Part shown: one piece after another, positions 48,558-51,374 of the stretch
Position numbering within the stretch: the stretch's first letter is position 1
Layout of the letters: every line of letters starts with the position of its first letter
Source of the DNA: Leptolyngbya sp. PLA1
Lineage (GTDB): Bacteria; Planctomycetota; Phycisphaerae; Phycisphaerales; UBA1924
Assembly (NCBI GenBank): GCA_021405315.1
Contig: QWIH01000002.1
Location: 62,001 to 126,000 of the forward strand
Direction: 5' to 3'
Length of the DNA: 64,000 nt
Position numbers and translations under genes: made by a program
Notes under the pieces: generated by a model
Seen by the model: only the letters and a program-made list of their open reading frames with translations
The model's database searches: none
Told to the model about the DNA's origin: nothing

Positions 48558-48654
48558 ACGCAAGAACGGCGCGGGTCCGATATCGGATGGTCGGCGGGGA
48601 ACTGCAACGCCCGTGACCTGCGTTTTCGGTCCAGGCTCTCGAGTGAGGCACGCC

Positions 48655-50082
48655 ATGCGGACCATCGCCATCATCAATCAGAAGGGTGGATGTGGGAAGA
48701 CCACGACCGCCATCAACCTCGCCTCGCAGTTGGCGGCGCAGGGGAGGCGGACGCTCCTGGTCGACATGGACCCGCAAAGCCATTGCGCCGCGGGTCTTGG
48801 TGTGCCCGAGTCGCGGATCGAGATGGACATCGGCGACGCGATGCTGGCGGTGGGGCCATCCGGCGTCGATGCGCCCCGGCTGCTGTGGCGAGTCGCGCGG
48901 AACCTGGACCTGGCGCCAAGCCGTACGAAGCTGGCCGGGCTCGAAGCGAGCAGGGGCGGGCTGGCGGACCTGCTGGATCGGGAGAAGCGTCTCGCGGCGG
49001 TGGTGTCGCAGTTCAAGCATGAGTACGACGTGGTGTGCGTGGACTGCCCGCCCACGATCGGACTGCTGACGTACAACGCGCTGGCCTGCGCGGACCTGGT
49101 GCTGATCCCGGTTGAGACCAGCTACTTTTCGCTGCAGGGCGCGACCAAGCAGGTGAGCACGGTGCGGACGCTCTCCCGGCGCCTCGGCGTGCAGTTGCCC
49201 GTCTGGCTCCTGCCCACGATCCACGAGGCGGCGAGCACCGTGGCCGAGGACCTGCTGGGCGAGCTCCACCGGCGCTTCAAGGACCGCGTGGTGCCGGTGG
49301 TGATCCGACGCGACCTGCGGCTGCGCGAGGCCGCGAGCTTCGGCCAGCCCGTGAGGGAGTATGCCCCTGATTCGACCGGCGCCGCGGACTACGCCACGCT
49401 CGCGAAGTGGATCGGGGAACTGCTCGTGGGCCCGCTCGATGCGGGTGCTGAAACAGGCGACGCCGATGTGACGGTACCCCCCATTACCGCGAGGTTTCTG
49501 GCAGAGAAGGGCGCGGATCGGGCCGCGGAGAAGCAGAACGCCGAGTGCGTGGAGGCCAAGGCCGGTCCGAACCGCGCGGAGGACGTTGCGAGGCGCGCAC
49601 AGGAGTTCCTGCGTCGTGTGGCGCTGGGCAAGGCGGGGCCGGGCGTGCAGCCCTTCGCGCCCATGACGCCGGTGGCGTCGCTGCCCGAGGCGCCCGTGCC
49701 GACGGTGCTGCCGACCGGCACGCTGAAGCTGGTTGAGACGGAGGCCAAGCCCGTCACCGCCCCGGGGACCGCGAGGCTGCTGGGTGTGCGGGAGACGAAC
49801 CAGGGCATGCTCTTCGTGCAGCCCCTGGCCAGCGGGCAGACCATCGCCATCGCGGGATCGTTCAACAACTGGTCGCCCTCCTCGCACGTGATGAAGCGAA
49901 ACACGGCGCTCGGCGTGCACGAGCTCTGCCTCCGGCTGCCGGCGGGGAGGTTCGTGTACCGCCTTGTGATCGACGGCCAGTGGACGGCGGACCCGTACAA
50001 CAACGATTGTGAGCCAAATCCCTTCGGCGGGACCAACAGTGTCTGTCGCGTGGGAGAGGGATCGGTCGTGCAGTCCGCCTGA
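48655..50082 (+). CDS. ParA-family ATPase fused to a C-terminal glycogen-binding-type E-set domain
   Basis: A 475-residue fusion. Residues 1-260 are a complete ParA/Soj ATPase: deviant Walker A KGGCGKTT (Lys10 and Lys15), LLVDMDPQSHCAAGLG, the Walker B region DVVCVDCPPTIGLLTYNAL, and PVVIRRDLRLREAASFGQPV. A disordered linker (~265-385) leads to an E-set/CBM48-AMPK-type domain (~388-465) with IAIAGSFNNWSPSSHVM, HELCLRLPAGRFVYRLVIDG and DPYNNDCEPNPFGGTNSV. This is the pattern of AMPK-beta and glycogen-branching-enzyme glycogen binders. GAGG precedes ATG 48655. ParB and oriC are not near, so chromosome partition is unlikely. The gene that follows 11 nt later is probably its partner. Confidence 0.9.
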   Translation: MRTIAIINQKGGCGKTTTAINLASQLAAQGRRTLLVDMDPQSHCAAGLGVPESRIEMDIGDAMLAVGPSGVDAPRLLWRVARNLDLAPSRTKLAGLEASRGGLADLLDREKRLAAVVSQFKHEYDVVCVDCPPTIGLLTYNALACADLVLIPVETSYFSLQGATKQVSTVRTLSRRLGVQLPVWLLPTIHEAASTVAEDLLGELHRRFKDRVVPVVIRRDLRLREAASFGQPVREYAPDSTGAADYATLAKWIGELLVGPLDAGAETGDADVTVPPITARFLAEKGADRAAEKQNAECVEAKAGPNRAEDVARRAQEFLRRVALGKAGPGVQPFAPMTPVASLPEAPVPTVLPTGTLKLVETEAKPVTAPGTARLLGVRETNQGMLFVQPLASGQTIAIAGSFNNWSPSSHVMKRNTALGVHELCLRLPAGRFVYRLVIDGQWTADPYNNDCEPNPFGGTNSVCRVGEGSVVQSA

Positions 50083-50093
50083 GGAGAGTGCGC

Positions 50094-51374
50094 ATGTACA
50101 CAAGGCCCAACGGGCCATTGGGCCTTCATGATTGCGGCGCCCTGCCGGACGCGGGGCTCGACGAGCACGACGCGCTCGCGGACCTGTTTCTTTCCGAGAC
50201 TGCCCCGGTGCTCAAGCTTGCGGGCGAGGCGCCCCCTGTCGTCCGTCCGACGATCCCCAGGATCGAGGGCCTCGTGCTGGGGCACCTGCCGGTCCTTGCG
50301 GCGGCGTGGGTCGTGCAGTACGCAAAGCACGCGGCGGACGAGTCGAACCAGACCATCGGTCTTGTGAGGGTGCAGGGCGGGCAGGTGTGGGTAGACCTCG
50401 TGCTGCCCCGGGGCGCCACGCCCCGGAACTCCAGCCGGATCGGGGTCGCGGAGAGCGCAACGGACCTGCGCGGCGCGATCGCGGTCGCCGCGAGAGAAGC
50501 GGGCCGATGGCTGGTCCGTGTCGACGAGATCGACGAGCCGGAACTGCTGACGACCCCCGGTGTGGGGGCCGTGACGCTCCTCACCGGCGCGGACATGCCC
50601 GCGATTGTCGCGTCCTACCGCACGATCAAGAACCTCTGCGGCGAGGAGCCGGTCGCGATGGACGCCGTCTCCCGCGTCAGGCTCGCCATCATGGGCGCGG
50701 ATGACCAGGCCGCGGCGGAGGCCGAGGCTCGGATCGCCAAGGCGTCGCGCACCTTCCTTGGCGGCTCCATCGCCTGCGCCGCCCGCGTCGGGAAGATCGC
50801 GGCATCCAGCACGCGCGTGATCTACCGCGGGCCCGGCGCCCCGACCCTCGCCGAGCTCGTGTCGCTGATCGACGGAGCGGGCGAACCCGCCCAGCCCGAG
50901 AAGCACGCCGCCCCGACGGCAGAGCCCCCGGTGGTGCGCGCGGAAGGGCCTTCACCGCGAAGCGGGGTCGAGACGGCTCCGGCCGCGGCGCCGTCCGTCG
51001 GCGCCCAGGGAGCTGAGATTGCCGAACTGATCGGACTGAAGCCCCTCGGAGCGGGATGCCCGGTCGCGCCGGGCGTCGTGCTGGCACGCGGGCACGCGGG
51101 CGAGTTGCACCTGGTCGCGCACGCCCCGGAGAGGGAGGCGGACCGCGCCGTGGGGGGGCTCCTCGCCGCCGCGGCATGGGCGGAACAGAACCGTCCTCTG
51201 ATCGACGCCGCCTTCCCGGGCGGAACGACGGGCGACGCCGGGCCGGCATTGCACGTGGTGGTGGACGACGCACGGGGCGCCCGGGGGCTGCTGGACACCG
51301 GGGTACGCGTGCACCTGGCGATCGAGGCCGCGCTGGACGGACGCGTCGTGCGGGTGGCCAGAGAACTCAACTAG
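50094..51374 (+). CDS. probable P-loop-less MinD/FlhG-like protein, partner of the ParA fusion
   Basis: A 426-residue protein not assignable by motif alone. Residues ~58-245 follow the strand-helix order of MinD/FlhG ATPases: [20 protein letters not shown] sits where the P-loop and helix 1 should be, but without GKGGx[22 protein letters not shown] and [18 protein letters not shown] with ASRTFLGG match the FlhG C-terminal half. It would thus be a nucleotide-binding-dead relative. After a Pro/Ala linker (~265-310) comes a second domain (~315-426) of unknown type. GAGGAG lies 7 nt before ATG 50094, and the gap to the ParA fusion is 11 nt, so the two are co-translated. Confidence 0.6.

Follow-up and report, generated by a model that had tools for sequence, protein, structure and literature searches.

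Does a single gene really join a ParA-type ATPase to a glycogen-binding-type domain and, if so, what could such a protein do in the cell? This question is raised by the reading frame at positions 48655–50082 (+ strand) of the window, i.e. the whole stretch of 64,000 nucleotides analyzed here, in which the preliminary description saw a possible positioning or segregation system for glycogen granules or another alpha-glucan body. Reading of the window gives one open frame of 475 amino acids (gene 1, protein P0001) encoding, in this order, a Soj-type ParA ATPase, a linker and an AMPK-beta/CBM48-type E-set. An in-frame GTG is present upstream, at 48613; the family alignment begins at the ATG at 48655. 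The coordinates first assigned to the gene are correct and the sequence motifs then cited were all found as written; the system itself is larger, with a conserved partner gene at 50088–51374. The two domains lie in one frame in most relatives that were compared, including some with no more than about 33–40% identity; the fusion is therefore neither a chance match nor the frameshift artefact that had been considered as an alternative. The host genome is a 3.4 Mb assembly in 93 contigs, with near relatives annotated as Phycisphaerales, Tepidisphaera sp. and Planctomycetaceae MAGs. An AlphaFold model of gene 1 built from five sequences (pLDDT 38) was too poor and was set aside. Note that in genome G408, ParA and the E-set lie inside an open frame of 1163 residues (L116:6872–10363), which is either a longer fusion or a frame lengthened by GC-rich sequence.

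The ATPase domain (residues 1–254; 48655..49416, + strand) matches Pfam AAA_31 over residues 1–180 (4.4e-43), and its best PDB matches are ParA 8ray (3.1e-45, residues 2–251) and Thermus Soj 1wcv (1.6e-36). Residues 9–17 (48679..48705, + strand) form a deviant Walker A motif, QKGGCGKTT, whose K10, G11, G12, G14, K15, T16 and T17 are invariant in 36 relatives; K10 and K15, which include the signature lysine of this motif, and the catalytic aspartates D37 and D130 are likewise found in 36/36. At the C-terminal basic positions, through which ParA/Soj ATPases bind DNA non-specifically, the alignment shows R218 in 28/36 and R/K224 in 35/36. Because the catalytic residues are invariant and R/K224 is retained in 35 of the 36 sequences, gene 1 likely encodes an active nucleoid-type ParA, and the earlier reading of a complete, true ParA domain is borne out. 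With the ParA/Soj chromosome-partition ATPases (TtSoj 1wcv, HpSoj 6iub), gene 1 shares the entire ATPase domain, the deviant Walker A, the switch and Walker B aspartates and, by sequence, a Soj-like C-terminal basic segment; it differs from them by the addition of the C-terminal linker and E-set and by having a pseudo-FlhG protein as its neighbor. The host also has a second ParA (C8; L152:7131–8030), which adjoins a response-regulator-like gene and beside which no clear ParB-like gene was noticed, both by eye.

The linker (residues 255–375; 49417..49779, + strand) is variable: it consists mostly of gaps in the family alignment and is disordered in a low-confidence model. It nevertheless contains a conserved motif, NRAEDVARRAQEF (residues 306–318; 49570..49608, + strand). 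A motif search found the pattern RAxELAxRARxL in 35 of the 59 orthologues, including two without an E-set (L071 and L083); this motif may be a point of contact with the partner protein.

The E-set occupies residues 376–469 (49780..50061, + strand). Pfam AMPK1_CBM (PF16561) matches residues 393–467 (1.6e-9) with 38.3 bits, above its cut-off of 26.8, and class-level family members reach 48–49 bits; in the same scan, CBM_48 (PF02922) falls slightly below its cut-off. A profile of 35 E-sets of the family, compared with the PDB, retrieves the carbohydrate-binding domains of AMPK beta-1 and beta-2 (2.7e-14 to 8e-14). The fusion of a ParA with an AMPK-beta-type E-set is thus confirmed by Pfam matches on both sides.

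Is the glycan site of this domain preserved? In the alignment with AMPK beta-1, W100, K126, W133, L146 and N150 (the last of which we take to be a glycan contact) correspond to W406, R436, W443, F457 and N461 of gene 1. Among the 53 ParA-borne E-sets, a count that leaves out the stand-alone protein L085, the W406 position is a tryptophan in 50 and the W443 position in 47, so that the aromatic glycan-binding residues, whose absence had been named as a possible objection, are kept. The position equivalent to K126 is an arginine in 52/53, the leucine equivalent to L146 is replaced by F or Y in 42/53, and N461 is an asparagine in 38/53. In AMPK beta, W100, K126, W133, L146 and T148 contact beta-cyclodextrin, and mutation of the contact residues tested markedly lowers glycogen binding (PMC2642990). 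Altogether, the sequence comparison suggests that the E-set of gene 1 retains an AMPK-beta-type alpha-glucan site and would bind glycan; the contact residues are maintained across Phycisphaerae and also in a second class, which is compatible with selection for a ligand. The two domains belong to the same family (PF16561; 1z0n, 2f15), with W100, K126(R), W133, L146(F/Y) and N150 at matching positions, but the E-set of gene 1 is attached to a ParA ATPase rather than to a kinase subunit and its glycan binding is predicted.

E-sets of this type also occur outside the fusion. Several planctomycete genomes encode proteins of about 100–165 residues that consist almost wholly of an AMPK-type E-set (L157:5831–6175, L158:5755–6105, L159:5210–5554, L161:5290–5583, L162:5515–5811, L163:5993–6487 and L164:5140–5562), and some of these genomes carry the ParA fusion as well. 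In G029, the E-set on ParA is decayed (L072:5561–7231) and a separate protein of 191 residues has an intact one resembling the fused E-set (L085:7073–7648); in this genome, the domain may have been relocated to a gene separate from that of ParA.

How old is the fusion, and how stable? In a sample of relatives, a ParA match was found in 41/41 genomes; for the gene 1 orthologue, 39 loci were examined closely. A sample of 392 genomes from the phylum yielded a match at 1e-75 in 39 genomes: 31 belong to the order, 7 to other parts of the class and 1 to a different class. The tree was built from 59 orthologues (the 39 loci of the first set plus 20 further ones), taken from Phycisphaerae and from a single genome of a different planctomycete class; it was rooted at the midpoint for drawing, and the placement of G098, G021 and G029 on long branches is unsure. 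Listing the genomes with the same fusion, as had been proposed, gave an intact E-set in 47 of these 59 orthologues, a decayed one in 6 and none in 6. Since the carriers fall in all main groups of the tree, a single old fusion followed by several later losses is the simplest account. The repeated loss or decay of the E-set left ParA and its partner in place, which indicates that the E-set is not essential to the core. A vertically inherited, chromosomal two-gene ParA system best explains the gene pair.

The second gene of the pair (50088..51374, + strand; GTG start, with an ATG at 50094) encodes P0002, a protein of 428 residues in which no Pfam or NCBIfam match was found. In 37 of the 39 first-set loci, ParA is directly followed by a homologue in the same orientation; the distance is mostly no more than about 100 bases and never exceeds 268. 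In the second set, the partner was recognized by profile in 11/12 loci of the order and in L100 (class level), and in the outlying class (L104), the ParA neighbor, of 328 residues, looks MinD-like by eye; beside ParA in the six f9 loci, no partner was found. The best PDB match of the P0002 profile is FlhG, at a weak E of 0.044. A structure predicted from five sequences (pLDDT 69) comes closest to FlhG and FleN (Foldseek, FlhG: 6.6e-5, prob 1.00; VIA, FlhG 4rz3: Z 10.2, rmsd 3.9 Å over 155 residues). In this model, residues 56–260 would adopt a MinD-like fold in common with FlhG and FleN (4rz3, 7ejw; Z 9–10). FlhG and FleN are functional Walker A ATPases, but the Walker A is missing from all 37 homologues of P0002: a degenerate P-loop of 13 residues (50280..50318, + strand) takes its place, reading G-[HN]-L-P...W..Q in 33/37. 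P0002 also differs by an extra C-terminal domain and by the location of its gene, next to the ParA gene and not next to recognized flagellar genes. Because the predicted fold is FlhG-like and the Walker A is absent from the 37 homologues, we consider P0002 to be a MinD/FlhG-type scaffold at most and do not class it as FlhG. The C-terminal domain (residues 304–428; 50997..51371, + strand), delimited by conservation and by predicted alpha/beta secondary structure (pLDDT about 66–86), matches no Pfam family; C324, H341, W364, H389 and H409 are conserved in it. Homology between P0002 and gene 1 was also considered and rejected (hhalign probability 0.1%), the FlhG-like fold having come from structure prediction. 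P0002 is probably an adaptor or regulator of gene 1, with which it would interact. ParA/Soj systems have a ParB partner and parS sites; beside gene 1, the conserved neighbor is this protein with no Pfam match and a predicted MinD-like fold. The idea of a cargo adaptor built into the ATPase thus holds in part: an E-set with conserved glycan-contact residues is indeed present in cis, but a separate, conserved partner gene had been overlooked.

The gene upstream of the pair is usually aroB or one that resembles a membrane glycosyltransferase gene. Several families of the order have a multi-pass, ArnT/PMT-like glycosyltransferase gene (identified by eye; L062:1824–3512, L065:8733–10451 and L082:5600–7330) upstream of ParA instead of aroB. 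Considered as functional partners, these upstream genes were discarded: they differ between families and seem to reflect synteny. In the loci examined, neither an alpha-glucan gene adjoining the ParA/partner pair nor a cargo gene linked to it was found.

If the E-set served glycogen, its distribution might be expected to follow that of glycogen metabolism. The host genome encodes a eukaryote-type GT3 glycogen synthase (PF05693, 9.7e-181; L147:6159–8129), a GT35 phosphorylase and a GH57 enzyme; GT3 glycogen synthases are known in PVC bacteria (PMC11046441). No GH13 enzyme with a CBM48 was found in the host genome or in its genus, so that the host glucan might lack branches or owe them to the GH57 enzyme. 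In the first survey, 40 of 41 genomes had no GT5 GlgA scoring above cut-off, but 28 of the 41 had a GT3 synthase, which led us to drop the notion that these bacteria are without glycogen. In all, 63 genomes were scored, one of the queries being joined GT3, GT5 and GT35 sequences from these genomes; a GT3 or GT5 synthase was detected in 35, absences of synthase and GT35 being dependent on assembly completeness and query, and the alpha-glucan routes covered being those through GT3, GT5 and GT35. Among the 51 genomes with an intact E-set, 31 have a synthase and 20 none detected; among those with a lost or decayed E-set, the figures are 4 and 8. A co-occurrence of E-set and synthase is thus unsupported overall (Fisher p 0.11 on 63 genomes). 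Within the order, the E-set is intact in 30/34 synthase-bearing versus 13/21 synthase-less genomes (Fisher p 0.04, kinship ignored). Moreover, G013, G022, G303 and G397, the last a single-contig genome that is 99% complete, have an intact E-set with GT3, GT5 and GT35 all undetected, while a synthase is present in G036 and G021, where the E-set is absent, and in G012 and G029, where it is decayed. These losses in the latter four genomes, together with the intact sites in the former four, argue against an obligatory glycogen-granule role of the fusion.

What, then, does the fused domain do? We tentatively favor, at a probability just short of even, a nucleoid-type ParA that binds alpha-glucan in cis, for tethering or for sensing, with the pseudo-FlhG protein as adaptor; this estimate covers both versions and therefore overlaps with those given below. 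ATP-bound ParA dimers would be located on the nucleoid; the E-set, held by its flexible linker, would bind an alpha-1,4-glucan chain or oligosaccharide. Either an alpha-glucan body would thereby be tethered to the ParA gradient, or the behavior of ParA would be made alpha-glucan-dependent, much as that of AMPK is by the AMPK-beta domain; P0002, as a pseudo-ATPase, would couple glucan binding to the cargo. The original proposal is narrower, namely a role of ParA in spacing or segregating granules of glycogen or alpha-glucan, in which the E-set would be the in-cis cargo binder. The conserved contact residues stand in its favor, as do the host GT3, GT35 and GH57 enzymes, the synthases of 35/63 genomes and the association within the order (p 0.04, kinship ignored), but p reaches 0.11 over all 63 genomes, no synthase was detected in 20 of the 51 genomes whose E-set is intact, and the synthase-bearing G012, G021, G029 and G036 have lost the domain or let it decay; we therefore consider it quite unlikely in this form. 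Rather improbable, too, is a carbohydrate-cargo partition machine in which a ParA with its own polysaccharide-binding domain would partition or anchor an alpha-glucan store on the nucleoid, with the dead FlhG-like protein as adaptor.

E-sets are generic immunoglobulin-like folds, and protein contact alone is a possible role of those of the AMPK type. The domain could then be a protein–protein or dimerization module only, devoid of a sugar ligand, which would agree with its presence in genomes without recognized glycogen enzymes; the selective conservation of both tryptophans and of the basic residue, along with an aromatic at the L146 position, is nevertheless unexpected for an idle site, and we hold this explanation to be about as unlikely as granule positioning. 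That the fusion is a functionless accident or an assembly artefact has nothing in its favor except the missing literature and is virtually untenable, being refuted by the same fusion in 47/59 orthologues, at class level and beyond. An alpha-glucan or maltodextrin sensor is a more serious candidate, if still an unlikely one when taken by itself: sugar status would alter the ATPase cycle, so that some other positioned object (division machinery, chromosome or appendage) responds to carbon supply. Such a role suits an accessory E-set, without which the core pair persists, as well as its retention in synthase-less genomes, where imported or phosphorylase-made maltodextrins are still possible, and it has a precedent by analogy in the domain of AMPK beta that lets AMPK sense glycogen (PMC2642990); it is weakened by the lack of a cargo gene linked to the pair in the loci examined.

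The favored reading, cis binding of alpha-glucan by a nucleoid-type ParA, would bring together two known elements. ParA/MinD ATPases normally reach their cargo via separate partner proteins. With McdA and other cargo-positioning members of the family, gene 1 likely has the nucleoid-gradient principle in common; to our knowledge, none of these has an in-cis carbohydrate-binding domain. A survey of the family describes partner proteins that are extremely diverse and does not mention glycogen (PMC10241942). Consistent with the earlier statement that no characterized ParA with this fusion was known to its author, we found no account of a ParA with a CBM48 or glycogen-binding domain in the open-access papers searched. 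Thus, ParA cargo systems and AMPK-type E-sets are each known, and their fusion is apparently undescribed, our comparison having been made mainly within Planctomycetota.

Few members of the planctomycete class in which the fusion is found have been cultured, and the cell biology of this class is unusual. The idea is directly testable, as it points to a pair of tryptophans, a single basic residue and one defined partner gene. Should the ligand not be glycogen, the conserved site would still hint at an unrecognized intracellular glucan or oligosaccharide signal in genomes without a known glycogen synthase. If the favored reading is true, the carbohydrate state and the spatial organization of the cell would be linked, directly and physically, through a sugar-binding domain that belongs to ParA itself.
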